Source of the DNA: Stenotrophomonas aracearum
GTDB taxonomy: Bacteria; Pseudomonadota; Gammaproteobacteria; Xanthomonadales; Xanthomonadaceae
Reading direction: 5' to 3'
NCBI RefSeq assembly: GCF_031834615.1
Contig: NZ_CP115543.1
Location: 2,243,001 to 2,307,000 of the forward strand
Length of the DNA stretch: 64,000 bases
Below are positions 4,950 through 19,122 of this stretch, piece by piece (positions within the stretch are counted from its first letter, which is position 1; each line of letters begins with the position of its first letter). The notes under the pieces are model-generated. The model did not search any database and was not told the DNA's origin. It saw only the letters and a program-made list of their open reading frames with translations. Made by a program: the position numbers and the translations under genes.

Positions 4950-6998
4950 ATGCATGTTTCATCCCCCACGCTTGCCCATTCCCTGGCCGCACTCACTGCC
5001 GCCATCGCCCTTGCCCTGTCCTCGCAGGCCCACGCCAACGGCGAAGCCGCTGCCGACACCAGGGACCTCGACACCGTCGTGGTCACCGCCACCGGCGCCC
5101 AGCAGTGGATCCGCGACGCGCCCGCCAGCATCAGCGTCATCACCCGCCAGGAGATCGAGCGCAAGCCGGTCAGCAGCATCGGCCAGCTGCTCAGCACCGT
5201 GCCCGGCGTGACCGGTGGCTATGCGCTCTCCGGCGCGCAGTCCAAGATCCGCCTGCGCGGCCTGCCCGAGCAGTACACCCTGATCCTCATCGACGGTCGC
5301 CGCCAGGGCAATTCGGCCGGCGTCAACTACCGCGACGACCTGGGCCCGCAGGACCTCAACTGGCTGTCGCCGGACATGATCGAGCGCATCGAAGTGGTGC
5401 GCGGCCCGATGTCGTCGCTGTATGGCTCCGACGCCATGGGTGGGGTGATCAACATCATCACCCGCAAGATCGGCACCGAATGGGGTGGCTCGGTTACCTA
5501 CAACTACAGCAAGCCCGATGCGAAGTCGCGCGGCAACACCACCCAGATGGGCGGATTGTTCAGTGGCCCGCTGACTGACAACCTGGGGCTGCGCGTGGGC
5601 GCCAACGTCACCGACCGCGAATCCGACCGCGGCCGCAGCCAGACCCCGGGCAACAAGGCGGAGAATGCCAACGCCCTGCTCAACTGGGCGATCAACGGCG
5701 ACCACATGCTGGGTTTTGAAGCCTCGCACGGCGTGCAGCGCAACAGTGGCGCCGGCAATGTAAACGCATGGGGCCTCTCCAAGCTGGTGCACACCGGTTA
5801 CGTGGTCACCCACGACGGCCGTTACGGCGACACCAGCACCTCCAAGACCACGCTGACCCAGAACGATTACGAGGACAAGGGCAGCGCGGTGGGCAACCAC
5901 TCCAAGGAAACCGTGTTCGACACCGCGTTCGCCACCGGCTTCCATTGGGGCTTCGAGCACAGCTTGAACGTGGGCGGCCAGTGGAAGCGCGAAGAGCTGC
6001 AGAACACCGACACCATCGGCACCGTACCGGTGACCTGGAGCGGCACCGGTCGGATCAGCCCGACCAATGAGGCCGACTCCTGGGCGTTGTTCGCCGAAGA
6101 CCACATCACCCTGCACGAGCGCTTCACCCTGACCCTGGGCCTGCGCTGGGACAACACCGAGAACTACGACGGCAACCTGAGTCCGCGCATCTACGGGGTG
6201 TGGCACCCGTCCGACGCGTGGACGGTGCGGGGTGGCGTGTCACAGGGCTTCCGCGCCCCCAACCTCAAACAGGGCAGCGCCGGTGCGGCCACCCAGTCCG
6301 GCGGCAACGGCTGTCGCAGCCTGACCGTGGAAGGCTGGACCAACCGCTCGGTCAGCGCCGACGGCACCACCGGCTGCTACATGACCGGCAACCCGAACCT
6401 GGAACCGGAAACCAGCACCAACTACGAGCTGGGCGTTGGTTTCGACCGAAGCGGCTGGTCGGCCTCGGCCACCTACTTCCTGACCGACTTCGACGACAAG
6501 ATCGAACAGGTGCCGCTGCGTGACATCGCCGGGTTCGACTCCAGCTTCGTCAACGGCTTCTGGTGGACGGTCGCGCAGAACATCCAGGAGGCGCGCACCC
6601 GCGGCGTGGAAGCCAGCGTCACGATTCCGCTGCATGAGCGTTTGAGCTGGACCACCAACGCCACCCGCATGCTGGAGTCGAAGAACCGCACGACCGGTGC
6701 CAACCTGCTGGTGGTGCCGAAGCTGACTGCCAATACCTCGCTGGATTGGCAGGTCACCGACGCGTGGTCGTTGAACCTGAGCGCGCAGCATGTGGGTGAG
6801 CAGCTGGTCTCCAGCACCAGCCCGACCTTCGCCAAGGCGTACACCACGTGGGACCTGGTGACCGGGTTCGATGTCAACGAGCACCTGACGTTGCGTGCAG
6901 GCGTGCTCAATGCCGGTGATGTCTCCACCATCGACGACGGCAACAGCTACGACACAGGCTCGCGCACGTTCTTTGTCGGTGCAACTGCCCGTTTCTGA
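4950..6998 (+). CDS. TonB-dependent outer-membrane receptor, siderophore/heme type
   Basis: The 682-residue protein has a signal peptide (to about residue 31, ending SQAHA), a TonB-box-like segment (LDTVVVTATG), a plug domain (PASISVITRQEI through VVRGPMSSLYGSDAMGGVIN), a beta barrel and a terminal Phe (ATARF), as expected for outer-membrane barrels. The plug resembles the FepA/CirA group that imports ferric catecholates or colicins. ATG 4950 is preferred because AGGAG lies 10 nt upstream; the TTG at 4941 would be too close to it. The gene is alone, with a Fur-like site upstream and an inverted REP pair downstream. The ligand cannot be fixed from sequence. Confidence 0.92.
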   Translation: MHVSSPTLAHSLAALTAAIALALSSQAHANGEAAADTRDLDTVVVTATGAQQWIRDAPASISVITRQEIERKPVSSIGQLLSTVPGVTGGYALSGAQSKIRLRGLPEQYTLILIDGRRQGNSAGVNYRDDLGPQDLNWLSPDMIERIEVVRGPMSSLYGSDAMGGVINIITRKIGTEWGGSVTYNYSKPDAKSRGNTTQMGGLFSGPLTDNLGLRVGANVTDRESDRGRSQTPGNKAENANALLNWAINGDHMLGFEASHGVQRNSGAGNVNAWGLSKLVHTGYVVTHDGRYGDTSTSKTTLTQNDYEDKGSAVGNHSKETVFDTAFATGFHWGFEHSLNVGGQWKREELQNTDTIGTVPVTWSGTGRISPTNEADSWALFAEDHITLHERFTLTLGLRWDNTENYDGNLSPRIYGVWHPSDAWTVRGGVSQGFRAPNLKQGSAGAATQSGGNGCRSLTVEGWTNRSVSADGTTGCYMTGNPNLEPETSTNYELGVGFDRSGWSASATYFLTDFDDKIEQVPLRDIAGFDSSFVNGFWWTVAQNIQEARTRGVEASVTIPLHERLSWTTNATRMLESKNRTTGANLLVVPKLTANTSLDWQVTDAWSLNLSAQHVGEQLVSSTSPTFAKAYTTWDLVTGFDVNEHLTLRAGVLNAGDVSTIDDGNSYDTGSRTFFVGATARF

Positions 6999-7012
6999 CG
7001 GCACCGGAATAC

Positions 7013-7034
7013 GTAGTGCCGGCCGCCGGCCGGC
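7013..7034 (+). repeat. GTAG (SMAG-type) REP element
   Basis: Begins GTAGTGCCGGCCGCCGGCCG: GTAG followed by a GC-rich palindrome. It pairs with an oppositely oriented copy at 7062-7083. Together they fill the gap between two convergent receptor genes and could fold as one long hairpin. Confidence 0.85.
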
Positions 7035-7061
7035 TCCAGGCGATGCCGGATTCCCCGAGGA

Positions 7062-7083
7062 GCCGGCCAGCGGCCGGCACTAC
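7062..7083 (-). repeat. GTAG REP element overlapping a stop codon
   Basis: On the minus strand it reads GTAGTGCCGGCCGCTGGCCG. The TAG of its GTAG head (7080-7082) is also the stop codon of the minus-strand TonB receptor. It is the inverted partner of 7013-7034, with 27 nt between them. Confidence 0.85.
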
Positions 7084-9125
7084 AGTTTCATGTTGACTGC
7101 CAGGTATAGGGATCGCCCTGCAGCCGGTGAAAACATCGGCTGCGGCTGCTCCCAGAAGAAGCTGTCGTACCACGCATACGCGTACTCACGGTCCGTCACA
7201 TTCTTCACCTGCACATCCACGCTCCAGCGCGGGCTGATGTCATACCGCGCACTCAGATCCAACACCGCGAAGCCGCCATACTTGCCGGCCACATTGCGCT
7301 CTTCCAGGTAATAATCCCCCTGCGCCCTGCCCTGCAGCCCAAACTGCAACGCCTCGGTCGCCTGGAAATCCACCCCGATGTTGCTGATGTAACGCGGCGT
7401 GGCCGCCACCTCACGCCCCTCCAGCGACAGACTCGCATCGCGGTTATCCCGCTCGATCTTCGCCTCCTGGTACGCGTGCGACGCCCACACTGTCCAGCGC
7501 TCGCCCAAGCTGGCACTGACCTGCGCGTCCACGCCCCGCCGCCGAGTCTTGCCCAACGTCACGGTGGTGCCAGTGGCCGGCATATTGGACACCTCATTGG
7601 CCGCGTCCTGCTGCCACACCGCAACACGCGCCTGGCTGCCCGCGAAGGGGCTGAACTTCATGCCCAGCTCCATGCCGGTGTTGGTGGAAGCGCCCATCGG
7701 ATCCTGGCCGGGAGTCAGGTACGCCGGCGGCGTCGAACCGGTCAGCACCTGGAAGGTGCGACCCCAGTTGGCGTACACATTGGCCGTGTCGGTGAAGGCA
7801 TACACCACGCTGAGCTTTGGCTGCCCGATGGTGCCGTAGCGCTGCAACGGCCCGGTCACGCCACCCTGCAACTGCGTATTGCCATCAAACCGGTCCACCC
7901 GGTACGCCGGCACGATCTTCAGCGCTTCGATGGGCTGGTAGATCGCCTGCGCGTATGCACCCCAGTTGTCGAACGTGTGGCGGTCGTTGTTCTGCACCCG
8001 CGCAGGCGGTGCCGAGAAGTCGGTGGGCTCTGCGTAGCTGAAACGCTCGCGGATATAGCCGTTGTCCTGATGCTCGTAGTTGAGCCCACCTTCCAGCGTG
8101 AGGGTGTCCGCTGGCTGCCAGGTCAACGTGGTCAGCATGCCGGTCTGCTTTTCATCCCATACCCGTCGCTGGCGCGGCGCGTTGCCGGTCGGCAGGTCGC
8201 TGAAGGTGACCTTGCGGTCGTCTTCGTACCGGTTGTAATAGAGCTTGCTGCCCAGGAACAGGTTGTCCGCCAGCTTCAGGTCCAGGTGCACGCCAATCTG
8301 GCGCATGTCGCGCTCGTCGACGTCATTGGCGTTTCGCAGCTGCGAGCCACGGCGGTCCGTACGCAGTTCTTCCGCCGTCATGAAACCCGGCTCGTCTGCT
8401 TCCTGATGGTAGGTGCGAGCGGTCAGCCCGACCCGCATGCCATCGTCCAGGCTGCCATAAAACCACTTCCCGCCCAGCGCGTACTTGCGCGAGGTGTCGT
8501 GGTCCCTATAGCCGTCGGAGGCCTGGGTGCCGAAGAAGTAGTTCTGCGCGACGCCGTTGCTCTCGCGGCCGACCGCCAGCTGTGCGTCGCGGGTGTTGTA
8601 GCTACCGTAGCTGAGCCGGCCGTCGGTGTAGTTGCCGCCCTGGCGGGTACCGAAGTTCACATTGCCGCCGATGTTGTGCAGGCCATAGCGCGGGTCGTTG
8701 GTACCGCGCACCACTTCGATGTAGCTGATCTCCAGCGGGAACAGCATGTCGATGAAGCGCTGGTTGCCGCTGTTGACGTTGCTGGGCACGCCGTCGATCA
8801 GGGTCTTGATCGCATTGAGGTAGCCCTCGCCATTGAAGGCCCGGAAGCTGACCTTGCCCGACTCGGCGCCCTGGCGGAATTCGGTCAGCTGGATCCCGGG
8901 CATCTGGCCGAGCAGCTCCCAGCTCTGCGAGACATTCTTGTCCTCGATCTGGTCGGCGCCGAGCACATCCACCGAGGTCAGCACCTGATGGGCCGTGAGC
9001 TGGCCTTCGGTGTGCTGGTGTACGTCGACCTTGCCGAGCGTGAGGGCGGAGTCGGACGACTGGGCGCGGGTTTGGGGCGCGAACAGGATGGCGGCAGTGG
9101 CGGCCACCAAGGCATGGATCTTCAT
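7080..9125 (-). CDS. TonB-dependent receptor, probably Zur-controlled (zinc or zincophore uptake)
   Basis: The 681-residue protein has a signal peptide (to about residue 22, FAPQTRAQ), a plug (QMPGIQLTEFR through IEVVRGTNDPRYGLHNIGGN) and a large barrel. It is a different subfamily from the neighbouring receptor at 4950. Its ATG (9125) follows a 19-bp near-palindrome at 9154-9172 that fits the Zur operator, so the likely cargo is zinc or a zinc-binding metallophore rather than iron. It ends in NMKL rather than the usual terminal Phe, and its stop codon is part of a REP element. There is no clear Shine-Dalgarno sequence. Assignment as a TonB receptor is secure; the cargo is inferred only from the operator. 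Confidence 0.9.
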   Translation of the reverse strand: MKIHALVAATAAILFAPQTRAQSSDSALTLGKVDVHQHTEGQLTAHQVLTSVDVLGADQIEDKNVSQSWELLGQMPGIQLTEFRQGAESGKVSFRAFNGEGYLNAIKTLIDGVPSNVNSGNQRFIDMLFPLEISYIEVVRGTNDPRYGLHNIGGNVNFGTRQGGNYTDGRLSYGSYNTRDAQLAVGRESNGVAQNYFFGTQASDGYRDHDTSRKYALGGKWFYGSLDDGMRVGLTARTYHQEADEPGFMTAEELRTDRRGSQLRNANDVDERDMRQIGVHLDLKLADNLFLGSKLYYNRYEDDRKVTFSDLPTGNAPRQRRVWDEKQTGMLTTLTWQPADTLTLEGGLNYEHQDNGYIRERFSYAEPTDFSAPPARVQNNDRHTFDNWGAYAQAIYQPIEALKIVPAYRVDRFDGNTQLQGGVTGPLQRYGTIGQPKLSVVYAFTDTANVYANWGRTFQVLTGSTPPAYLTPGQDPMGASTNTGMELGMKFSPFAGSQARVAVWQQDAANEVSNMPATGTTVTLGKTRRRGVDAQVSASLGERWTVWASHAYQEAKIERDNRDASLSLEGREVAATPRYISNIGVDFQATEALQFGLQGRAQGDYYLEERNVAGKYGGFAVLDLSARYDISPRWSVDVQVKNVTDREYAYAWYDSFFWEQPQPMFSPAAGRSLYLAVNMKL

Positions 9126-9153
9126 CAAGGACTGTCGTTATGAATAGGCAGTG

Positions 9154-9172
9154 GATGTAACACTATAACATC
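9154..9172 (-). promoter_or_regulatory. Zur-type operator overlapping a -10 box
   Basis: GATGTAACACTATAACATC has one arm (TATAACATC) identical to the known Zur half-site consensus and the other (GATGTAACA) two mismatches away. Read on the minus strand it contains TATAGT, a good -10 hexamer (9162-9167), so repressor binding would block RNA polymerase for the receptor gene that starts 28 nt downstream. Confidence 0.7.
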
Positions 9173-9313
9173 ACGCTGGGTCCCTCATACCACACAATGG
9201 AACCACGACCCCACTTCTCTCCCCGCCAGTTTCACCGGACCCTGCCCGGGAGAAACCTAGGATGGGACAGTCGCAGCGGAGGGCTGCGCCGTAACAGGCT
9301 GTGGAGGCGTGCA

Positions 9314-10639
9314 GTGACCGAACGCGAGCGTCAAGCTGCAGTGGAGTACCTGCGGATTCTGGATTCCGACCCGGAGCCATTCTTCGACGCCCTGACCCGT
9401 GCAGCCCACGCCATGACCGGGATGCCGATCGCGATGATTTCGCTGATCGACGGCAACCGCCAGTGGTTCAAGTCGCTGGTGGGCATCGATGCCGCGTCGG
9501 AAACCGCCCGCGACATCTCCTTCTGCACCTGGGCGATCCAGTCGGACATGGTGCTGGAGGTGCAGGACGCCAGCGAGGATCCCCGGTTTGCCGACAACCC
9601 TATCGTGCAGGGGCCGCCCTTCGTGCGTCATTACCTGGGCGCACCGATCCGGGTACAGGGCGGCAACCGGATCGGCACCCTGTGCCTGCTCGACACCGCG
9701 CCGGGCCAGGCCAGCGCGGGCCAGCGTGAAGCGTTGGCATGGCTGGCACAGGTCGCCGCCTTCGCCATGGAGCAGCGCGCCAGCCTGCTGAACCGGATGG
9801 CCGAGCAACGACAGGCCAGCGAGGCACTGTCACAAAGCGAGGCGCGCTACCGCCGGCTGTTCCAGCACAGCCTGGGACTGATCTGCACGCATACGCTGGA
9901 CGGCATCATCACCTCCGTCAATCCGGCCGCCTCCGCCTCGCTGGACCGGCCTGAATCGGAGCTGGTCGGTCATTCGCTGGCTGAGATCATTCCCGAAGAG
10001 CGGCAACATCTGCTGCAGGAATACCTGCAGCGCATCGCCGAGAACCAGAGCGATTCAGGCGTAATGGAGCTGCTGGCCGAAGACGGCTCGCGCCGCTACT
10101 GGGCGTATCACAACATCCTCGACACCGAAGCCAGCCCGCAGTACGTACTCGGGCACGCGCAGGACATCACCACCCAGCACCTGCAGGAGCGTCAGCTGAT
10201 GGAACTGTCCATCCGCGACCCGCTCACCCGCTCCTTCAACCGCCGCTACCTCGCCGAGCTTGCCGAAAACCAGCCCGAAGCCTGGGGCTGCCTGGTGTTC
10301 GACCTGGACCACTTCAAGGAAATCAACGACACGCAGGGCCATGCGCATGGCGACGCTGTACTGGTGGACTTCGTCTCGTTCATGTCCGAACCGCTGCAGG
10401 AAGGCGAAGTGGTGGTGCGACTCGGCGGCGACGAATTCCTTGTGTTCGTACCGGGCGCCACGTTGGAACGCCTGCAGGCACTGGAGACCGAGTACCAGGA
10501 CCGCGCCTACCTCTCCCCCATCCGCTTCTCCGGCGGCTGCGCTATCAATCGCCCTTCGGAGACCGTAGCCGACACCATCAATCGGGCCGACATGAAGCTT
10601 TACGAGCGTCGGCGGCGAGAGCGTCCGCCCTCCAACTGA
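9314..10639 (+). CDS. GAF-PAS-GGDEF diguanylate cyclase
   Basis: The 441-residue cytosolic protein starts at GTG 9314, which has GGAGG about 6 nt upstream. A GAF domain (about 20-155; PIAMISLIDGNRQWFKS, IGTLCLLDT) is followed by a PAS domain (about 175-290; YRRLFQHSLGLICTHTLDG) and a GGDEF domain (about 300-435). The active-site motif RLGGDEF is intact, so it should make cyclic-di-GMP. No RxxD inhibitory site is seen at its usual position before GGDEF, so product feedback may be weak. There is no EAL domain and no membrane segment. It stands alone at the left border of the AT-richer island. The sensed signal is unknown. Confidence 0.9.
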   Translation: MTERERQAAVEYLRILDSDPEPFFDALTRAAHAMTGMPIAMISLIDGNRQWFKSLVGIDAASETARDISFCTWAIQSDMVLEVQDASEDPRFADNPIVQGPPFVRHYLGAPIRVQGGNRIGTLCLLDTAPGQASAGQREALAWLAQVAAFAMEQRASLLNRMAEQRQASEALSQSEARYRRLFQHSLGLICTHTLDGIITSVNPAASASLDRPESELVGHSLAEIIPEERQHLLQEYLQRIAENQSDSGVMELLAEDGSRRYWAYHNILDTEASPQYVLGHAQDITTQHLQERQLMELSIRDPLTRSFNRRYLAELAENQPEAWGCLVFDLDHFKEINDTQGHAHGDAVLVDFVSFMSEPLQEGEVVVRLGGDEFLVFVPGATLERLQALETEYQDRAYLSPIRFSGGCAINRPSETVADTINRADMKLYERRRRERPPSN

Positions 10640-10685
10640 GCGCTTGGCACAGCCGCAGCCGCATCGCGCACTGAATCAGCCCCAA

Positions 10686-11162
10686 TCAAACCGCGGACGC
10701 TACAACTTCGAGATCGTTCACATCGAGGTAAAGTCGTGCTCTCACGTACAAGCCTGCGATCATGTCCAGCTCGGATTCCTTGTCGGCGTGGTGGGTCACC
10801 AGTCTTTCGCCAGGAAGCATGCCTTGTGTGACTGCGTGCTGTCGAAGCCCGGCAAGGTTGGCCTGAAGAAGTTCGCCCGACATGACGCCGCCAATCCCCC
10901 CTTTGAAGGTGACCAGGCAATTCCCGTCCTCATGGCGTTGAACCCTGAAATCAGGGTCTTGAAGAGTGACCGCACGGAGTCGTTCATTTGCCTCAGTAAC
11001 ACCGAGCTCCCCATCGCCAATCCAGACCACGCAGGTCCCGTGAGAGTAAAGCGTAAACGCGCGACCACCCAAGTACTTGCGCAGATGCGACATCGTCCAT
11101 TCGCGCGCAGGCACGACGCTTGGACGCCATTTCGGCTTGGGAACTTCAGTTTGCATATTCAT
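10686..11162 (-). CDS. Hypothetical protein, last gene of the immunity-like array
   Basis: 158 residues with no recognised domain and no signal peptide or membrane segment; likely a small cytosolic globular protein (MNMQTEVPKPKWRPSVVPAR start). ATG 11162 is chosen because AGGA lies just upstream and because it overlaps the TGA of the preceding gene by 4 nt (ATGA), which implies translational coupling. The size, strand and surroundings match the small immunity genes carried in arrays beside polymorphic toxins. No toxin is adjacent, so this is inference from context. It converges with the GGDEF gene, 46 nt away. Confidence 0.65.
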   Translation of the reverse strand: MNMQTEVPKPKWRPSVVPAREWTMSHLRKYLGGRAFTLYSHGTCVVWIGDGELGVTEANERLRAVTLQDPDFRVQRHEDGNCLVTFKGGIGGVMSGELLQANLAGLRQHAVTQGMLPGERLVTHHADKESELDMIAGLYVRARLYLDVNDLEVVASAV

Positions 11163-11464
11163 CCTTGTCCTGTTTGATATATATAACAAGTATGCGGAGA
11201 GGGACAACTGCGCGCCGCATTAAGGCAAATGAGAGGAGAGCTATGCCAAGGATGTAAGCTCGGGCTCCTTGAGGCAGCGTATGACAGATCATCCAAGTAG
11301 CTTTTGCCTCGCGCCGCGCACTCCCTCAGCTCAGCCTCGGAGAGCACGAAGGTCACTTCATACATTGCGATACCACCCATTATAACGTCGAGGCAAATGG
11401 CGCCCTCAGAGCTTGCGAACAATCGGTACATCAGTGTTGAATCAACGAGTAGATCCTGCTCCAT
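11159..11464 (-). CDS. Hypothetical protein, possibly frameshifted near its end
   Basis: 101 residues from ATG 11464, which has a strong GGGAGG 8 nt upstream. The first 65 residues look like a compact domain (MEQDLLVDSTLMYRLFASSE through YLDDLSYAAS). The last 35 are rich in Ser, Pro, His and Cys (SPSLHPWHSSPLICLNAARS), which is unlike a folded domain. In the +2 frame the same DNA ends soon after as LKEPELTSLA, so a small indel near 11265-11275 may have destroyed the original C-terminus. It overlaps the next gene by 4 nt. No family is recognised; the context suggests an immunity-type protein. Confidence 0.6.
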   Translation of the reverse strand: MEQDLLVDSTLMYRLFASSEGAICLDVIMGGIAMYEVTFVLSEAELRECAARGKSYLDDLSYAASRSPSLHPWHSSPLICLNAARSCPSPHTCYIYQTGQG

Positions 11465-11632
11465 ACCGATCGCCTCCCGATGCAAGGAGAATGTAGCCTG
11501 CGGAGCGCACGTCCATGCCGCGACATGCACACCACGGCTTGGGATCTCAACGTCCCGGCACCTTCTAGAATCTTCAAGGTGACGAAGCCTTGCGCCTACC
11601 GGTGACTTTAAGGCGCAGCTCTGCAACTCTCG

Positions 11633-12100
11633 TTAGCGAATGTCATGATCGTCGTTGAATGAAGTCTCAAGTTTCCTTCCGGACATCGCCTGCATGCCAT
11701 GCACAGCAATCTCTGCCAGGAAGCACCTCCAGTGATTCAATATGGTGGAGAGTTGCGCGTGGGAAAACTGCGGCGGCTCTCCTCCTACATCGAGCTCCGG
11801 GTAGATGTCATTGGTAAAGCATGCAAACCCTGGCTTGGCTACGGGCGGATCCAGCCAGATCGCGACCACGTTGTAACCCCAGTTCGCCCACCCAGTTCCC
11901 GATGGCTCGCGCCCCGGGTCTTCCATCGTGTCGAGCAAGTGAGCCACTTCCTCCAACTGTTCCTGGTCAAGTTCTGTGATCAGCGACAGAACTGTTAGAT
12001 TCACTGCACGGCAATAGCTGTCATCCGGCCCTACACAGTAGTAGGTACTCCGGAAATATCCCGGTGAGTGCTCGTAGACTGAAGCAATGAACGTAATCAT
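11633..12100 (-). CDS. Hypothetical protein in the immunity-like array
   Basis: 155 residues from ATG 12100 (MITFIASVYEHSPGYFRSTY); a GTG at 12109 in frame is the alternative start and neither has a convincing Shine-Dalgarno sequence. It is a soluble acidic protein with no signal peptide (LITELDQEQLEEVAHLLDTM is an amphipathic helix). No domain is recognised. It lies 168 nt before the gene at 11464 in the same direction. Size, acidity and position fit an immunity protein, but this is inference. Confidence 0.65.
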   Translation of the reverse strand: MITFIASVYEHSPGYFRSTYYCVGPDDSYCRAVNLTVLSLITELDQEQLEEVAHLLDTMEDPGREPSGTGWANWGYNVVAIWLDPPVAKPGFACFTNDIYPELDVGGEPPQFSHAQLSTILNHWRCFLAEIAVHGMQAMSGRKLETSFNDDHDIR

Positions 12101-12212
12101 GGATTGCACTCGGGGACTCCACGTCGTCTTAGAACAGCGCTACCATTCGGCACGAACGAACGCAAGCCGATCTGGGCGTGCTCGGCCGGCAAAAAATATG
12201 TGGCACCAGCGT

Positions 12213-12560
12213 TCATTCCTCTCCAGAGTCATCCAACTCAACCCTCATTGCTTGGACGAATCTATCAACATCCGATACCTGCTGCCCAGAGGGAAGCTGA
12301 ATCCTGGAGAAGACGTGCTCCAACTCTGCCGTTGACCAGTACTCGGACGCTCTAAGGACCTCCAACATATCATCGCGCCCTACCCTGTTCCATGCGAGAA
12401 AATTCGGTCTCAGCCAATCCCTCATCAAACGTGCCAGCTGTACGTCATCCTCGATGTCCACCCCGGCAATCAGGTCTGCCTCCCTGTCACTCAGCCCATT
12501 AACGTCGAAATATCTAAGCAAGACCATCAGGTCTCTGGGCTCGAGCTTGCGCAAGATCAT
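12213..12560 (-). CDS. Hypothetical protein in the immunity-like array
   Basis: 115 residues from ATG 12560; GGAG lies too close to this ATG to be an ideal ribosome site, so the start is uncertain. The protein is all-helical in appearance and acidic (ADLIAGVDIEDDVQLARLMR; WSTAELEHVFSRI), without signal peptide or membrane segment. No known family is recognised. It follows the paralogue pair in the same direction, with 70 nt between its start and the stop of the gene at 12631. Confidence 0.6.
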   Translation of the reverse strand: MILRKLEPRDLMVLLRYFDVNGLSDREADLIAGVDIEDDVQLARLMRDWLRPNFLAWNRVGRDDMLEVLRASEYWSTAELEHVFSRIQLPSGQQVSDVDRFVQAMRVELDDSGEE

Positions 12561-12630
12561 TCTCCACAATCGAAAGAACAGCGATAATGACCGGGCTCGA
12601 ACGCATCAAGAACGGCATCCAATCCCTTCC

Positions 12631-12963
12631 TCATGGTACCGCAGCTGAATCATACCTTGGATCCATAACAATCCTTCCTTCAAGCTCATCCCAGTACTCC
12701 TTATAGAGCGAGAAATCATCAGCAGTCCGGGCTTCCTTGTGTGCACCTCTCACGGCTCGGGCGAAAGCCGCAAATTCATCCGGACGCAGTCCATCAGCGG
12801 AGATTGCTGACATTCCACCCTCGTCATGGTGCCAAAATACCTGCGCGGCAACGGCCCTCTCACCGGCTCCGAAATGACACCGTATGGCATCACTTAACCG
12901 ATCAAACACGATCGAGCTGAGCGCGACACCTTCTTCATACGTTACAAAGATTGTCCCTGCCAT
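12631..12963 (-). CDS. Immunity-like paralogue B
   Basis: 110 residues from ATG 12963; an upstream in-frame GTG at 12972 is possible. It begins MAGTIFVTYEEGVALS and ends EGRIVMDPRYDSAAVP. It can be aligned by eye along its length with the protein at 13274-13594 (MAGSMVFSNENGVGMS, then VF..H/F D.GG, an Ala/Arg helix, and a D-x-RY end), so the two are diverged copies of one gene. No named family is recognised. Tandem diverged copies of about 110 residues without a toxin are typical of immunity-gene arrays. Confidence 0.7.
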   Translation of the reverse strand: MAGTIFVTYEEGVALSSIVFDRLSDAIRCHFGAGERAVAAQVFWHHDEGGMSAISADGLRPDEFAAFARAVRGAHKEARTADDFSLYKEYWDELEGRIVMDPRYDSAAVP

Positions 12964-13060
12964 TTCACTCACATATGAAGAATGAATTGTCCGATGAACT
13001 TCAAGACCTCAGAAATCAAAGGTGTTGAGGACATCTCCCCCGAAGAGTAGCTCTGGCCCA

Positions 13061-13273
13061 TTACCGCGGATATCGAGCATCACACCTCATCGCGTCGAGG
13101 ATCTCTACCCACAACCACTTACCATCCAGTACGAACCCGCCGTCGCGGCTTGCGGAATAGGCTCTCTCACTGGCACGACAGAAGGCCAAGAAATTGTAGG
13201 CCTCCAACTCCGTCGAAGAGAGGAAGTACAGCCCACCCTCGCCATGGGGGCTGAACACTTCCTCGTGCACATC
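13061..13273 (-). pseudogene. Truncated paralogue C, in frame behind the stop of copy A
   Basis: Directly after the TAG that ends copy A (13274-13276), the same frame continues as DVHEEVFSPHGEGGLYFLSS and runs to a normal end (ILDAMRCDARYPR, stop at 13061). It matches residues 37-106 of copy A (DVLEEVFDPFDGGALNYLY to DSRYQK) but lacks the first 36 residues. There is no space for a ribosome site, though a GTG at 13270 could be used by re-initiation. It looks like the scar of unequal recombination between tandem copies. Alternatively, the two-copy frame may once have been one protein now interrupted by TAG. Confidence 0.7.
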
Positions 13274-13594
13274 CTACTTCTGATATCTGGAATCTGCCGC
13301 CATCGCGTCAAATATTTCCGCCCACAGCCCTTCATCGACCAGTTCGCCCCCGCTCTCCCTACCTGCAACATGCGCTCGGTTGATCGCCCCACAAAGGATC
13401 AAGTACTTGTCACCGTCCAGATCGGCTGCGTACAGGTAGTTCAAGGCTCCCCCGTCAAATGGATCAAACACCTCCTCGAGAACATCCTGCTCTGCAGGCA
13501 GGAACGCGTCACGCACAAGGCGTGCGAAACACCTGAATTGAAACGTGCTCATTCCTACGCCGTTCTCATTAGAAAAAACCATGGAGCCAGCCAT
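13274..13594 (-). CDS. Immunity-like paralogue A
   Basis: 106 residues from ATG 13594, with GAGG about 6 nt upstream. The protein is small, acidic and soluble (MAGSMVFSNENGVGMSTF; EGLWAEIFDAMAADSRYQK). It is the most complete member of a local family of three (A here, C at 13061-13273, B at 12631-12963). No domain name is recognised. It is the first minus-strand gene of the group, so a promoter should lie between 13595 and 13771. A role in neutralising a partner toxin is inferred only from the array layout. Confidence 0.7.
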   Translation of the reverse strand: MAGSMVFSNENGVGMSTFQFRCFARLVRDAFLPAEQDVLEEVFDPFDGGALNYLYAADLDGDKYLILCGAINRAHVAGRESGGELVDEGLWAEIFDAMAADSRYQK

Positions 13595-13771
13595 TACTAC
13601 CTCACAGTTATGATCTTAGCCTGCTGATCCGGCGACAGGCCGGCAGTGTGCTTCAAAAGATGGCAAGTGCGAAGAGCTCTTCCGAATCAAGAAATCCATA
13701 TTTCGTACCAGGCGCTCTCCATTGGGCCGCAGAAGAACGCCATGTCTGATCGACAGCGACAGCTCTAGCAC

Positions 13772-14092
13772 TCAATCATCACGATGACCGTCACCGCGGG
13801 TGAGCTGCCGAAGCACCCCAACCGCTAGAGCCACTGTCCAGCCCACCGCCCAGGCGATGAAGCCAGACTCTCTCAGGAGGGTGTCTCTCGGAATCACTGA
13901 GATAAAGAACCCGAGAACCGCTAGCCCCACCACCAGCAGCGGCGCCACCACCGGCCCACGCCATGCAACAACTGCAGCCACCGGTAGAGAGATCAAGGGA
14001 AAGAACACACCCCCGCCGAATGGCGCAGCCCCAACCACGGCGAAGAACGCCGAGACCACCACCAACACCCACCCCATCACCTTGAACTGCAT
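13772..14092 (-). CDS. Small four-helix membrane protein
   Basis: 106 residues made almost entirely of four hydrophobic segments (about 5-24, 27-45, 48-68 and 77-96), with a charged C-terminal tail (RQLTRGDGHRDD). AGGAG lies 9 nt before the ATG. No family is recognised. It lies 177 nt upstream of the paralogue array in the same direction and has higher GC than its neighbours. Membrane immunity proteins exist, but nothing specific supports that role here. Confidence 0.7.
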   Translation of the reverse strand: MQFKVMGWVLVVVSAFFAVVGAAPFGGGVFFPLISLPVAAVVAWRGPVVAPLLVVGLAVLGFFISVIPRDTLLRESGFIAWAVGWTVALAVGVLRQLTRGDGHRDD

Positions 14093-14242
14093 CCTGGCTT
14101 ACTCCTGTCCATGCGGCCCGGCGACAGCGCCTTAACCTGCATTGCCTATCCTAGCAACGCGCCACGGGCATGACGCTCGGCGTTTCAATCGCCTTTCTCG
14201 ATTCGATAGACAGGCGCTAACGAACACTGCAAAGGAGTAGCA

Positions 14243-14518
14243 ATGAAGAAGCGTTACGCTGCCGTTCTCACCGCATGCCTCTTGGGCACCAGTGCCCTCG
14301 CCTTCGCCGAAGTCGCCAACCTGACCAACAGCGCCGAGGGTGCGAATCGCGACGCGGGACTGGCCGCAGTCAAGAAAAAGCTCCAGGACGCCTGCACCGA
14401 CCGCAAGGGTACGCCCGACGCGGCCTCCTTCGAAGTGGTGTTCGAAAAGACCAGCGACAACCCCGACGTACCCAAGCCGTACTACGTTGACGGCAAGATG
14501 AAGTGTGATCTTCCCTGA
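14243..14518 (+). CDS. Small secreted protein of unknown function
   Basis: 91 residues with a clear signal peptide (MKKRYAAVLTACLLGTSALAFA, about 22 residues). The mature part of about 70 residues is polar and contains two Cys (DACTDRKG and KMKCDLP) that could form a disulphide. AAAGGAG precedes the ATG by 6 nt. It is the only plus-strand gene in the island and ends at a likely terminator (14528-14547). No family is recognised; the location is probably periplasmic. Confidence 0.8.
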   Translation: MKKRYAAVLTACLLGTSALAFAEVANLTNSAEGANRDAGLAAVKKKLQDACTDRKGTPDAASFEVVFEKTSDNPDVPKPYYVDGKMKCDLP

Positions 14519-14527
14519 TCCTACCTT

Positions 14528-14547
14528 GGGCTTTCGCCTGAAGGCCC
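14528..14547. terminator. Likely Rho-independent terminator
   Basis: GGGCTTTC-gcct-GAAGGCCC makes an 8-pair stem with one T:G pair, followed by TTCTTC. It begins 10 nt after the stop of the secreted protein, between two convergent genes. Confidence 0.5.
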
Positions 14548-14600
14548 TTCTTCGACTTCCGTGAAACTGGCCGCGCCTCCGGGCCGCAGCCGGTCAGCCC

Positions 14601-14903
14601 TCACGGTTCGGACAGATTTCCCTCACCCGTTTCCGGGTCTGTCAGCACCCTGATAGAGGAGCCGTCATAGAAATCGCCCCTGGTCATGTGTGAGCCTGTT
14701 GCGATGAGCTCACTCTCCCTGAGACTCCAACTTTCGCCACTCTCCATCATATGGACCGAGTAGGACCACGTGCCGGTCTCGTCATTCCGAGCCATACCCA
14801 GAACAGCCCCTCTCCACCCGACTATAGCGCCAGTCATCGACCTTCCCGCTATCACCTCTACGACTTCATAGAACGCAAACAGGGAGCCACCATCTCTGTT
14901 CAT
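14601..14903 (-). CDS. Imm31-like immunity protein
   Basis: 100 residues. The sequence FYEVVEVIAG, then RGAVLGMA, ESWSLRESELIATGS and a final DFYDGSSIRV resembles, from memory, the Imm31 family of polymorphic-toxin immunity proteins. GAGGG lies 8 nt before the ATG. It follows the gene at 14929 by 25 nt in the same direction, so the two probably form an operon. The matching toxin is not in this window. The family call is by pattern recognition and was not checked by a search. Confidence 0.6.
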   Translation of the reverse strand: MNRDGGSLFAFYEVVEVIAGRSMTGAIVGWRGAVLGMARNDETGTWSYSVHMMESGESWSLRESELIATGSHMTRGDFYDGSSIRVLTDPETGEGNLSEP

Positions 14904-14928
14904 TACGCGGCCCTCACGTCACCCAACC

Positions 14929-15342
14929 TCATTTTCGACGGAAATCAATCTCACCTGAGAACTCCCGTATCGGATCCCTCTCGATGATGGTAGTGAATCG
15001 AAGCGGAAAGAGTGACGACGCCTCTGGCAGTCCAAGTGCAGGATCGTCGGCTGAAAGCTCTGCAAGACTTTCAGTTGAAAACTTTGGGAAGTTCGAATTG
15101 ACTGGGTACATCTTTCCATTCGCGAAAATCCCCATCCCTACGTCACCCATGCCATTCACGCATCCATCGAATTGAAATCCCTGCGCGGTGGTGATCCGAA
15201 CTCTAAAGAAAAGGTCATCGATACTCTCTATCTGCTCATCAAGAGTGATGACAGGCGAATAGACTTCCGTATCCCTATCTTGCATCCAGACAGAGAACGC
15301 GAGGAAATCACTGAGTTCAAGAAACTGTTTTGACGCAGTCAT
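14929..15342 (-). CDS. Hypothetical protein, upstream partner of the Imm31-like gene
   Basis: 137 residues from ATG 15342 (MTASKQFLELSDFLAFSV), or 141 from a GTG at 15354. It is soluble and acidic, with a beta-rich middle (DDLFFRVRITTAQGFQFDGC; MGMGIFANGKMYPV). No family is recognised. Its position directly before an Imm31-like gene suggests a second immunity protein or a toxin-related remnant. GC content is visibly lower than in the flanking metabolic genes, consistent with acquired DNA. Confidence 0.65.
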   Translation of the reverse strand: MTASKQFLELSDFLAFSVWMQDRDTEVYSPVITLDEQIESIDDLFFRVRITTAQGFQFDGCVNGMGDVGMGIFANGKMYPVNSNFPKFSTESLAELSADDPALGLPEASSLFPLRFTTIIERDPIREFSGEIDFRRK

Positions 15343-15681
15343 GAGTAGCTTCACCAGGTCTAGTCGGCATCCCTCAAAGCAACATCAGGAGCAGCACGCT
15401 CCCATCGGTACTCCCCTGCCACTCACCGATGCATGAAGGCTTGTTTCATCCATCGGCCCCGCTCCAAATAATTAGTCGGTTACAGGCGGCCATCACTATC
15501 GCCGATTATCCAGCAGTTGGTACAGCGCTACGGAGGTTCTGACCCGCAAGCGTGGGTGCGCTGCGGTCAGGAAATCCGCCCGCCCCTGCCGGAAACGCCC
15601 ATCTCCACCCCACCCCTCGCTGCTATAGTCGGTCCATCGTGACGGGCACCCCGCCCGTCCTTGGATCGCAGGGAGCGGGTC
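15343..15681. other. Intergenic region at the right border of the island
   Basis: These 339 nt separate the AT-richer immunity-like genes from the SPFH operon. No supported gene was found; one short minus frame overlaps the SPFH start and lacks coding character. The last 60 nt carry TATAGT near 15622 as a possible -10 box and GGGAG (15671-15675) as ribosome site for the SPFH gene. Confidence 0.5.
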
Positions 15682-16842
15682 ATGGGTCTCATTCAAGCAG
15701 TCAAGGGTGCAGTGGGCGGCGTGCTGGCCGACCAGTGGAAGGACTTCTACACCGTCCCGGCTGGGCTGCCGGCTACTGCGGCGCTGTTCGCGGCGGTGCC
15801 GCAGGGCACCAACGCAGGGCGCGGGTCCAACACCAGCGGCTCGTCCAACATCATCACCAATGGCTCGAAGATCGTGGTGCCGGAAGGCTACGGCCTGCTG
15901 CTGTTCCAGGACGGCGCGATCACCGGCTTCGTGGCCGAGCCGGGTGGTTATGAATGGCGTTCGGATGACCTGAATTCGCAGTCGATCTTCGCCGGCGACG
16001 GCATCGTCACCCCGCTGATCAAGCAGAGCTGGGAGCGCTTCAAGTTCGGCGGCCAGCCGGGCGGCCAGCAGCAGGCGTTCTTCGTCTCGCTGAAGGAACT
16101 GCCGGACAACCGCTTCGGCACCCAGTCGGAAATCTACTGGGACGACGGCTTCCTCAACACCCAGGTCGGCGCGGTCACGCGCGGCTCGTACACGTTGAAG
16201 ATCGTCGACCCGATCCTGTTCGTGAAGAACTTCGTGCCGGCCAGCTACCTGCAGCCCGGCAAGGTGTTCGACTTCACCGACATGGACAACGCAGCTGCCA
16301 CCCAGCTCTTCAATGAAGTGGTGGGCTCACTGGCACCTGCCTTCAGCCTGTATACGAACGATCCCGGCAAGGGCAACCGCATCACCAAGCTGCAGCAGGA
16401 CTCGCTGGGCTTCGCCCAGAGCCTCTCCGCTGCGGTGGAACAGGGCTACCAGTGGAAGTCTGACCGCGGCCTGGCCATCGTCAAGACCGCCATTGTCTCC
16501 ATCGAATACGACGCCAACACCCGCGAGCTGCTCAAGACCGTGCAGCGTGCCGATGCGCTGTCCGGTGGGCGTGGCAATTCCAACCTGCAGGCCAGCGTTG
16601 CGCAGGGCATCCAGTCCGCTGGCGAGAACGGCGGCGCGGCCGGCATCATGGGCGTAGGCATGGCCTCGGGCATGATGGGAGGAATTGGTTCGCTGCAGCA
16701 GCCGGTTGCGCCTTCCGCTCCCGCCGCGCCGGCTGCAGACGACCCGGTGGCCAAGCTGACCAAGGCCAAGGAAATGCTCGACCTCGGCCTGATCACCCAG
16801 GCCGACTACGACGCGCTCAAGGCCAAGGCGCTGGGTCTCTAA
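15682..16842 (+). CDS. SPFH-domain protein with C-terminal SHOCT-like segment (YdjI-like)
   Basis: 386 residues. After a short N-terminal region, residues about 55-290 form an SPFH/band-7 type domain (NGSKIVVPEGYGLLLFQDGA; GSYTLKIVDPILFVKNFVP). A Gly/Met-rich linker (MGVGMASGMMGGIG) and a Pro/Ala linker follow. The final 30 residues (KLTKAKEMLDLGLITQADYDALKAK) are a SHOCT-like motif. This layout matches the so-called virion core family that includes Bacillus YdjI. GGGAG lies 6 nt before ATG 15682. Its partner zinc-ribbon gene begins 18 nt downstream. In Bacillus the related genes lie with pspA and act in the envelope stress response; no pspA is present here. Confidence 0.8.
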   Translation: MGLIQAVKGAVGGVLADQWKDFYTVPAGLPATAALFAAVPQGTNAGRGSNTSGSSNIITNGSKIVVPEGYGLLLFQDGAITGFVAEPGGYEWRSDDLNSQSIFAGDGIVTPLIKQSWERFKFGGQPGGQQQAFFVSLKELPDNRFGTQSEIYWDDGFLNTQVGAVTRGSYTLKIVDPILFVKNFVPASYLQPGKVFDFTDMDNAAATQLFNEVVGSLAPAFSLYTNDPGKGNRITKLQQDSLGFAQSLSAAVEQGYQWKSDRGLAIVKTAIVSIEYDANTRELLKTVQRADALSGGRGNSNLQASVAQGIQSAGENGGAAGIMGVGMASGMMGGIGSLQQPVAPSAPAAPAADDPVAKLTKAKEMLDLGLITQADYDALKAKALGL

Positions 16843-16860
16843 GGCGGACACTACAGACCC

Positions 16861-18195
16861 ATGTCCGACCCCAGAACCCCGCCCCCGTTGCCCGGGGCTC
16901 CACCGCCGTTGCCGGAGGCCGATACCGGCCCCGGCTCGCCGCGTGACGTACCGCCGCTGCCGGGCAGCTTTCCGCTCGACCCGGCCACCCTGCCCGACCC
17001 GATCCGCGCCGAGATCGAGGCGCCGGATCCGGTCGCCCTCGACACCCGTGCCGAAGAGCTCAAGGACGGCCTGAACCGCTGCCCGAAGTGCGGCTCGACC
17101 GACGTGCGGCTCAAGCTCGGCACCGACGTGCTGATCTGCCAGTTCTGCCGTCACGAATGGCACGGCGCCTCGGTTGAACAGGAATATAGTCTGGGCGAAG
17201 GCTTGGACCAGCTGCGTGGCACGATCATCGCTTCGGGCGCACGCGACATCGAAGCCGGCACGGCCAGCCTGATGAGCTTCAAGTGCACCGGCTGCGGTGC
17301 GGAAGTGACCATCAATACCGAAACCACCATGACCGCACGCTGCCACTGGTGCCGCCATGTGTTCGGGGTCAACGAGCAGGTCGCCAACGGCGCGGTGCCC
17401 GACGCGGTGCTGCCGTTCCGGATCAGCAAGGACGACGCGGTTTCGCGCATCCGCCAGTTCGTGGACAAGCGCCGGCTGTTCGCGCTCAAGGCGTTCAAGG
17501 ACCAGTTCACCCCGGAAAACGTGGTCGGCGTGTACATGCCGTACATGATCGTGGACAGCAACGTCAGCGCCAGCGTGACCGGCAAGGGCGAGATCCAGAC
17601 CCGCCAGTACACGCGGGGCGAGGGTGACAAGAAGAAGACTTACTACGACGCGGACGTGTACCAGGTGGAGCGGTCGGTGGATTTCACCGTGGACGACCTG
17701 CCCATGGAATCCTCTGCCGAGCGTGGCAATCTGGACATCAAGGCCAACACCAACAACATCATCAACACGATCCTGCCGTTTGATACCAAGAACGCGCTGA
17801 AGTGGAACGCCTCGTACCTGCTGGGCTTCAGCTCGGAAAAGCGCAACCTGGATGTGGAGAAGATGAAGCCGCGGCTTGAAGACCAGCTGCTGTCCATCGC
17901 CCGCTCGCAGGTGGAAGGCTCGGTACGCCGCTATGACCGTGGCGTGCGCTGGGAGACTGAGCAGGTGGACGTGCACGGCTCGCGCTGGGTCTCCATGTAC
18001 CTGCCGGTGTGGCTGTACTCGTACCACCAGCCCGGCCGCAACGGCGGCATGCTGCATTACATCGCGGTCAACGGGCGTACCGGTGAAACCATGGGCAGCG
18101 TGCCGGTGCAGCAGTGGAAACTGCTGCTGGCCGCGCTCACCACCGGCACGATTGTTGAAGCCATCACCCTCTGGTTCCTGGTAGCGGCCTCATGA
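16861..18195 (+). CDS. Zinc-ribbon membrane protein (YdjG-like), partner of the SPFH protein
   Basis: 444 residues. A Pro-rich N-terminus (PPPLPGAPPPLPE) is followed by two zinc ribbons: CPKCG...CQFC at about 74-96 and CTGCG...CHWC at about 141-163. A large soluble middle region (YMPYMIVDSNVSASVTGKGE) and a C-terminal transmembrane helix (LLLAALTTGTIVEAITLWFL) complete it. It is related to TFIIB-type zinc-ribbon proteins found beside SPFH proteins, such as YdjG of Bacillus. Its TGA overlaps the next ATG by 4 nt. It is probably a membrane-anchored adaptor that recruits partners under envelope stress; the exact role is unproven. Confidence 0.8.
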   Translation: MSDPRTPPPLPGAPPPLPEADTGPGSPRDVPPLPGSFPLDPATLPDPIRAEIEAPDPVALDTRAEELKDGLNRCPKCGSTDVRLKLGTDVLICQFCRHEWHGASVEQEYSLGEGLDQLRGTIIASGARDIEAGTASLMSFKCTGCGAEVTINTETTMTARCHWCRHVFGVNEQVANGAVPDAVLPFRISKDDAVSRIRQFVDKRRLFALKAFKDQFTPENVVGVYMPYMIVDSNVSASVTGKGEIQTRQYTRGEGDKKKTYYDADVYQVERSVDFTVDDLPMESSAERGNLDIKANTNNIINTILPFDTKNALKWNASYLLGFSSEKRNLDVEKMKPRLEDQLLSIARSQVEGSVRRYDRGVRWETEQVDVHGSRWVSMYLPVWLYSYHQPGRNGGMLHYIAVNGRTGETMGSVPVQQWKLLLAALTTGTIVEAITLWFLVAAS

Positions 18196-18446
18196 GCGAC
18201 GATAGTGGACTCTGGTTGCTGTTGGCTGGCCCCGCCAGCGCAACGGCGTTGTATTGGGGCTTGTACCGGTATTACCGCAATACCGACAAGTCGCATGCGT
18301 TCGAACGCGAAACCACGGTGGAGGCCAAGCCGGTGACCGGCTCGGACCGGCAGGTGGACACCAACAACGGTACGAAGGAGACGCGGATCCGCGGGGATAA
18401 CGTGCGGGAGTATCGAAAGCGCGTCGTGCGCGGCGGAGGCGGATGA
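18192..18446 (+). CDS. Small single-pass membrane protein of the SPFH module
   Basis: 84 residues: one N-terminal hydrophobic helix (LWLLLAGPASATALYWGLYR) and a basic, polar tail (ETRIRGDNVREYRKRVVRGG). The ATG overlaps the stop of the zinc-ribbon gene (ATGA), so it is translationally coupled and the third member of that operon. No named family is recognised. Confidence 0.75.
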   Translation: MSDDSGLWLLLAGPASATALYWGLYRYYRNTDKSHAFERETTVEAKPVTGSDRQVDTNNGTKETRIRGDNVREYRKRVVRGGGG

Positions 18447-18510
18447 ATGTGACCGCCTTCGCGCCACCTGCATCAACCGTGCACCCTGACTAGACAACCC
18501 ATGGCACACC

Positions 18511-18526
18511 GTAGGGCGAATCGCCC
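18511..18526 (+). repeat. Possible degenerate GTAG element
   Basis: GTAGGGCGAATCGCCC has the GTAG head and a 5-bp stem (GGGCG/CGCCC, loop AAT), 15 nt before the first FeS subunit gene. The stem is short compared with the other elements in the window. Confidence 0.3.
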
Positions 18527-18540
18527 CAGCCGGAACTGCC

Positions 18541-19122
18541 ATGAGCGAGCCTGTCGCATCACCCCGTGTTACTCCGCCGCCCCGCCCTTCCCCGGGTCCG
18601 CGCGTACTGTACCCGCTCAGCCTCACCGTCAATGGCGAGCAGCAAACGCTCCAGGTGGAGTCCACGGTCAGCCTGCTCGACCTGCTGCGTGAACGGCTTC
18701 AGCTGACCGGAACCAAAAAGGGCTGCGACCACGGCCAGTGCGGCGCATGCACGGTGCTGGTGGATGGCCGCCGCATCAACAGCTGTCTGACCTTGGCCGT
18801 GATGCAGGACGGTGCCGAAATCCAGACCATCGAAGGGTTTGCCGACGGCGACGCCCTGCACCCACTGCAACAGGCCTTCATCGCCTGCGATGCACTGCAA
18901 TGCGGCTACTGCACCCCCGGACAGATCTGCTCCGCGCAGGGCCTGATCAACGAAGGCAAGGCGTGTAGCCGGGATCAGGTGCGCGAACTGATGAGCGGCA
19001 ACATCTGCCGCTGCGGCGCGTATCCGCAGATCACTGAAGCGGTGATGTCGGTAGCCGGCATCGCGCCAACGCAGGATGCCGCCACGCCGAAGCAGTGGGT
19101 GCCCGGGACGGTGCCGGCATGA
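18541..19122 (+). CDS. Molybdo-hydroxylase [2Fe-2S] subunit, copy 1 (no Tat signal)
   Basis: 193 residues of the xanthine dehydrogenase/aldehyde oxidase small subunit family. Plant-type ferredoxin cluster ligands are in [20 protein letters not shown] and the following C; the second cluster uses [11 protein letters not shown] and CRCG. The N-terminus (MSEPVASPRVTPPPRPSPGP) has no twin-arginine signal, unlike copy 2 at 22524, so this enzyme should stay in the cytoplasm unless it is exported in another way. It is followed by its FAD and Mo subunits with 4-nt overlaps. Substrate is unknown; aldehydes or N-heterocycles are usual for this family. Confidence 0.9.
   Translation: MSEPVASPRVTPPPRPSPGPRVLYPLSLTVNGEQQTLQVESTVSLLDLLRERLQLTGTKKGCDHGQCGACTVLVDGRRINSCLTLAVMQDGAEIQTIEGFADGDALHPLQQAFIACDALQCGYCTPGQICSAQGLINEGKACSRDQVRELMSGNICRCGAYPQITEAVMSVAGIAPTQDAATPKQWVPGTVPA

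Follow-up and report, generated by a model that had tools for sequence, protein, structure and literature searches.

Between a GGDEF gene and the operon that follows it, the 64,000-nucleotide stretch of Stenotrophomonas aracearum DNA analyzed here (contig NZ_CP115543.1; the whole stretch is referred to below as the window) carries an island of small genes that we interpret, with a probability of about 0.86, as a heterogeneous orphan polyimmunity locus, i.e. an assortment of immunity genes whose toxins would have been left behind. An immunity array was also what the initial annotation, made from the sequence alone, had proposed, and this reading is now supported by toxin-linked homologues of two sets of genes (E/F/G and D) and by an Imm31 gene (K), with four further genes (A, B, C, and L) joining it by association. 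The unrelated families in the island are the CdiI family of PDB entry 5J4A (E and G), an Rhs-linked family (D), and, across the resident genes I and J, Imm31 (K), the remainder being unproved. The island comprises twelve open reading frames (ORFs), eleven of them on the minus strand, between the GGDEF gene (9197-10639, plus strand) and the next operon (from 15661, plus strand). They are given here together with the two stretches missing from a genome labelled as the same species (G014):

A, 10686-11162, minus strand: 158 amino acids (aa), family unknown, candidate immunity gene
B, 11159-11464, minus strand: about 101 aa, acidic, 4-nt ATGA overlap with A, candidate immunity gene
C, 11633-12109, minus strand: 158 aa, acidic, candidate immunity gene
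D, 12213-12569, minus strand: 118 aa, acidic, putative Rhs-type immunity gene by homologue linkage
E, 12631-12972, minus strand: 113 aa, predicted CdiI of the 5J4A (E479) family
F, 13061-13270, minus strand: 69 aa, E/G paralogue reduced to its C-terminal half, a probable remnant
G, 13274-13594, minus strand: 106 aa, predicted CdiI of the 5J4A (E479) family
H, 13616-13771, minus strand: 51-aa ORF, unsupported, probably a remnant or non-gene
I, 13772-14092, minus strand: 106 aa, hydrophobic by eye, resident gene, not cargo
J, 14243-14518, plus strand: 91 aa, exported-type by eye, resident gene at the empty site
K, 14601-14903, minus strand: 100 aa, Imm31
L, 14929-15354, minus strand: 141 aa, acidic, family unknown, candidate immunity gene
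10627-14121: stretch (A to I) missing in G014
14515-15582: second stretch (K and L) missing in G014

By sequence and by the predicted structure of G, the genes E, F, and G belong to the CdiI family of PDB 5J4A, the immunity protein of Burkholderia pseudomallei E479. The model of G was superimposed on chain B of this entry over 104 residues, nearly the whole of G, with a root-mean-square deviation of 1.6 and 25% identity, while sequence searches matched the same chain with E-values of 7.5e-10 for E (phmmer), 2.1e-7 for G, and 1.1e-23 for a profile. The families other than Imm31 had been taken as undescribed in the initial annotation, which does not hold for these three genes. They are indeed the tandem paralogues that it had noticed, except that F is only half a gene: it covers the C-terminal half of the same domain but comes from a different paralogue, begins in frame directly after the single TAG stop of G (the two together spanning 13061-13594), and shares 42% identity with G over 67 aa. 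Elsewhere, homologues of the family stand directly behind toxin genes of the CdiA_C_tRNase type (PF18664). In the genus genome G005 a homologue follows, at a distance of 3 nt, a CdiA ORF that is at least 2964 aa long and ends in PF18664 (E 8.1e-31), and in Rhizobium leguminosarum a gap of 2 nt separates one from a preceding gene with hemagglutinin repeats and the same terminal domain (E 4e-39); the match between E and the CdiA-linked Rhizobium homologue had a BLAST E-value of 9e-13. In the window, E and G are not placed behind a cdiA gene with a cognate tip. Among 91 genomes of the genus, PF18664 was present in G005 alone and not in the genome of the window (14 control genomes gave no match either), whereas the E/G profile matched seven, and E and G are therefore regarded as orphans. 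The search of the window's genome was directed at the CdiA_C_tRNase toxin, which was not found, and other cdiA genes were not searched for. By their family, E and G would be expected to block a toxin of this kind. Mutually similar CdiA-like pieces and small genes were also seen near a CdiI homologue in two genomes, G005 (L124:3400-8700) and G089 (L125:11000-15400), and have the appearance of orphan CdiA tip and immunity modules.

A second delivery route is indicated by D. Its matches among the 91 genomes are limited to that of the window, G032 (50% identity), and G018 (E 3.5e-4), the last of which lies inside a 990-aa ORF that by eye resembles a helicase and was disregarded as a probably spurious match. 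In G032 an RHS-repeat ORF of at least 2934 aa (E 3.3e-52) has the homologue (L133:8989-9333) beginning right at its end, and since this is the position of a cognate immunity gene, D is most simply read as a putative Rhs-type immunity gene, in keeping with the earlier suggestion to look for toxins beside homologues. The Rhs tip next to it (L133:9323-18127) matched no Pfam family and was found in one of the 91 genomes, which is not that of the window. Compared with PDB sequences, D gave nothing better than an E-value of 0.65.

K is an Imm31 protein (PF15591; E 1.5e-7, 31.6 bits against a Pfam cut-off of 25), which bears out the resemblance noted by eye. Imm31 was linked to the toxins Ntox17 and Ntox7 by Zhang et al. 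(PMC3482391). Our search for Ntox17 (PF15524) matched none of the 91 genus genomes and no control genome either, which makes it uninformative. A homologue with 44% identity to K occurs in a plasmid cluster of Photobacterium sp. GJ3 (L136, an unannotated record), where the companions of an Imm31 gene are several ankyrin genes in repeated copies, colicin-immunity genes or domains, and a pyocin domain of the S type. The plasmid collection yielded one record each for K and G, and no match for A, C, D, or L. In the window's own genome, the search for CDI (contact-dependent growth inhibition) and Rhs systems covered two toxin tips and Ntox17.

The close spacing and shared orientation of the genes agree with a heterogeneous polyimmunity locus. 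The genes from G to A lie on the minus strand with spacings of -4 to 168 bases, L and K are 25 bases apart, and the ATGA overlap noted earlier is found between B and A; only J, which runs on the plus strand, and a spacing of 508 bases between K and I depart from this pattern. In 500-base bins, GC content was 50-61% over positions 10750-15500 as compared with 61-70% over 7000-10750 and 15500-19000, confirming the reported drop relative to the flanks. Of the nine small, mostly acidic genes that had been described as lying mainly on one strand, the arrangement stands, but there are twelve ORFs, two of which (I and J) are residents and one of which (H) is unsupported. The isoelectric point (pI) lies below 5.0 for B, C, D, E, F, G, K, and L, hence for eight of the twelve, and is higher for A (6.3), J (7.7), and the basic H and I; H is in this respect unlike the other cargo and had no homologue in the compared loci of relatives. 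The statement that no toxin, secretion gene, or transposase is adjacent was likewise upheld for the ORFs scanned: toxin families were detected neither in ten island ORFs (B and A as longer frames) nor in J, toxin or secretion families were absent from nine flanking ORFs (Pfam), and no transposase or recombinase was recognised by Pfam among the ten island ORFs, the nine flanking ORFs, and J. There is no tRNA within the window, and the only flanking repeat is one short direct repeat of 18 nt. The upstream flanking gene encodes a GAF-PAS-GGDEF protein (Pfam scan). The SPFH name of the downstream neighbour stems from the initial annotation and found no Pfam match at 1e-5; we retain it below merely as a label.

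Comparison of the site between genomes revealed that its content is variable. The SPFH-named neighbour was located in 52 of 61 genomes of the genus, and the DNA upstream of it was compared for all 52 as well as for G061 and G076, with some of these 54 loci ending early at contig ends. In six of them (G000, G014, G015, G002, G061, and G076) the same GGDEF gene lies on the other side, while four further loci have a different GGDEF gene (32-36% identity) that is more distant. The interval between the GGDEF gene and the neighbour measures 5025 bases in the window, 502 in G014, 814 in G015, 3676 in G002, 6327 in G061, and about 2460 in G076. In the 502-base gap of G014, J is the sole window gene matched, and the A-I and K-L stretches are missing, one on each side of it; the 814-base gap of G015 matches I and J only, and I is also present in G076. 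Because G014 keeps J, and G015 both I and J, without the array, these two genes are residents of the site and not part of the immunity cargo. The G061 site contains, in a different order, A, B, C, K, and L, two copies of I-J, and a homologue of E/G that carries a frameshift, and that of G002 (S. rhizophila DE0483) contains J and K together with a homologue of E/G and further small genes. In G061 the two I-J blocks (L087:8147-8883 and 9872-10611; 740 bases, 91% identical) flank K-L, and this duplication suggests that cargo may be changed by homologous recombination around I-J. Across the 91 genomes the cargo is patchy: A was found in three, C in four (one of them weak), L in two, Imm31 in four, and the E/G profile in the seven mentioned above. 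Conserved single-copy genes in all relatives with no link to toxins, the outcome that had been named as speaking against immunity, were thus not what was observed; instead, the cargo is patchy, the site is empty within the same species, and two families are toxin-linked. In another genome, G047, the 2 kb immediately upstream of the SPFH-named gene (L044) have a GC content of 57-59%, as compared with 67-69% over the 3 kb beyond, and look like another low-GC insert at this gene.

Ratios of nonsynonymous to synonymous substitution rates (dN/dS) were then calculated against homologues in relatives. They were 0.13 for A (with G061), 0.25 for B (68 codons), 0.19 for L, 0.17 and 0.23 for C, and 0.35 and 0.09 for K, the second value for K coming from a comparison with near-saturated dS. 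I gave 0.40, J 0.09 and 0.15, and both flanking genes 0.04, while dS was saturated for D, E, G, and the second comparison of A, so that no ratio is given for these. A, B, C, K, and L are therefore under purifying selection (dN/dS 0.09-0.35), and such low values indicate that the island genes go beyond chance reading frames.

The four remaining cargo genes, A, B, C, and L, are candidate immunity genes by association. A was searched in the genus genomes and plasmids only, and in the three genomes that have it, it lies within an array every time; one homologue (L123:607-1119) is situated in an array of genome G031 (contig C372) alongside a homologue of E. B was searched in the compared loci only, and its homologue is in G061. 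Among 5.8 billion proteins, C had 11 homologues and L five, one of which is the window's own, and all named protein matches of both were from Stenotrophomonas. No meaningful match was obtained for any of the four in Pfam, NCBIfam, or PADLOC, and nothing better than an E-value of 0.65 for C and L among PDB sequences. A scan of named species for C returned S. rhizophila DE0483 only (by a short-pattern method that may leave out the genome of the window), and there C occurs at a second address, near genes for a 410-aa protein, a 94-aa protein, and a RelA/SpoT-domain protein on the same strand. This neighbourhood (L112:9854-12705), with the RelA/SpoT gene (PF04607), the 94-aa gene, and the 410-aa gene, in which a HELGH motif is visible by eye, is possibly a defence or toxin module. 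Separately, a second variable spot was seen near genes that look by eye ATPase-like and reductase-like in G084 (L113:7230-8264) and G061 (L114:7494-9017); it holds a small gene common to both (52% identity) as well as distant relatives or pieces of C.

Several results weigh against the polyimmunity interpretation or narrow it. The link between D and Rhs comes from a single genome, G032. For A, B, C, and L a toxin partner was not found, and the predicted structure of C (mean confidence, pLDDT, 71) had no Foldseek match at 0.001. In the arrays of relatives, one of 20 scanned proteins exceeded an immunity-family cut-off (Imm70), and none of six proteins of the G031 C372 array matched Pfam at 0.01. 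Finally, F is half a gene, H is unsupported, and in G061 the homologue of E/G is broken into two frames, from which it appears that part of the array is decaying.

Some of these points would be accommodated if only E, G, D, and K were immunity genes and A, B, C, and L were unrelated genes sharing an insertion hotspot. The missing toxin partners and database matches of these four fit such an explanation, as does the position of C in S. rhizophila DE0483, which is not behind a recognised polymorphic toxin. Nevertheless, we consider it rather unlikely, in view of the size of the genes, the low pI of B, C, and L, their patchy distribution, and the repeated company of immunity genes, A occurring with an E homologue in L123 and C being accompanied in G061 by K, L, and a piece of E/G. 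The signs of decay, together with the fact that CDI loci leave orphan pieces (L124 and L125), could instead mean that the whole array is a functionless remnant of former CDI and Rhs loci. This appears improbable, since the frames of A, B, C, K, and L are intact with dN/dS of 0.09-0.35, no toxin, CdiA, or Rhs family was detected in the ten island ORFs scanned, and three families with different delivery routes are hard to derive from one decayed locus. A low-GC variable hotspot of small unknown genes also resembles defence islands, and the array might act against phages, or hold the antidotes of toxin-antitoxin pairs, instead of guarding against toxins delivered by contact; but none of the ten genes scanned (F and H being outside the scan) matched PADLOC, the one PHROG match was weak (I), and the links to CDI, Rhs, and Imm31 are positive ones, which leaves this explanation with very little probability. 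Going beyond the polyimmunity interpretation itself, we tentatively suggest, at somewhat less than even odds, that A, B, C, and L represent four immunity families not described so far and that the GGDEF-I-J interval of S. rhizophila-related Stenotrophomonas serves as a dedicated library of immunity genes that lacks its own recombinase, collects CDI, Rhs, and Imm31-type antidotes, and is rearranged by homologous recombination between I-J copies.

As a polyimmunity locus, the island would have acquired its genes from toxin-immunity pairs of other bacteria, with the toxins left behind. A neighbouring cell would deliver a toxin tip by contact, namely that of CdiA (E and G), of Rhs (D), or of an Imm31-type partner (K), and the matching cytoplasmic immunity protein would bind and block the toxin domain, so that the cell survives; several antidotes without toxins would then protect against several kinds of competitors. 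We infer in the same way that the products bind their toxins and protect the cell and that the island genes are jointly expressed. A Stenotrophomonas lineage would keep immunity genes of at least three families, which in other genomes are linked to CDI and Rhs toxins, at a single site next to which no toxin gene was recognised. Empty and filled versions of this site are available for comparison within one species, A, B, C, and L form a short list of possible new immunity families, and toxin tips are predicted for E, G, and D.

Acquired interbacterial defence clusters of Bacteroidales are carried by mobile elements or accompanied by a recombinase. Among the systems most similar to the present locus are the heterogeneous polyimmunity loci, which, as described in PMC3482391, consist of tandem, same-strand, unrelated immunity genes with no intervening toxin and with content varying within a species. 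Ours differs from that description in showing no recombinase among the neighbouring ORFs scanned, in being split by I-J, and in containing several families without a Pfam immunity match, although an adjacent recombinase is itself reported for several cases only in that text. Since the polyimmunity features are present except for the recombinase, and since similar clusters exist in S. rhizophila and Salmonella Typhi, we place the locus within this known kind. The S. Typhi islet, according to PMC7400221, contains putative immunity genes against the type VI secretion system (T6SS) and CDI, is chromosomal, mostly orphan, and serves more than one delivery route; it has 14 genes in another organism, and the likeness is one of description. 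Two poly-immunity clusters of S. rhizophila CFBP13503, at least one of them low in GC, belong to the same genus and are immunity-type, but are associated with the vgrG3 and vgrG6 T6SS clusters (PMC13340143), whereas none of the nine flanking ORFs here is of a toxin or secretion type; a variant of the present site is in another strain of that species, DE0483. In the S. maltophilia complex, PMC11893273 reports a CdiI with a predicted E479 fold that neutralises its toxin in Escherichia coli. The non-cognate cdiI genes of that complex share with our locus the genus, E479-like tRNase immunity, low-GC modules, and a proposed role in defence against foreign CDI, but strains without full-length cdiA are described there as having no cdiI, whereas here the genes lie at a site apart, in the company of Rhs-type and Imm31 immunity genes. 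Finally, chain B of 5J4A resembles G in fold and by significant sequence similarity, and differs in that identity is 25% and that the window holds two complete genes of this type plus half of a third, none with its toxin. A search of the literature on Stenotrophomonas immunity genes, whose coverage left out most subscription papers, returned no title on the present locus.

Other arrays were noticed in the genus. In G031, contig C361 (L094:109-6530) carries about 13 small genes on the same strand, with Imm70 (4.1e-10) located at 6114-6530 and part of an Imm31 gene close to 2250, and ten other proteins of this array that were scanned matched no immunity family. The array on contig C372 of the same genome (L123:1-3445) lies at the contig edge and, besides the A and E homologues, encodes a 317-aa protein. 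A SUKH-like part was read by eye in L123:1179-2132 and is not claimed, Pfam giving no support at 0.01. In its first part, the 317-aa protein is similar to a protein of 157 aa from the array in G002.

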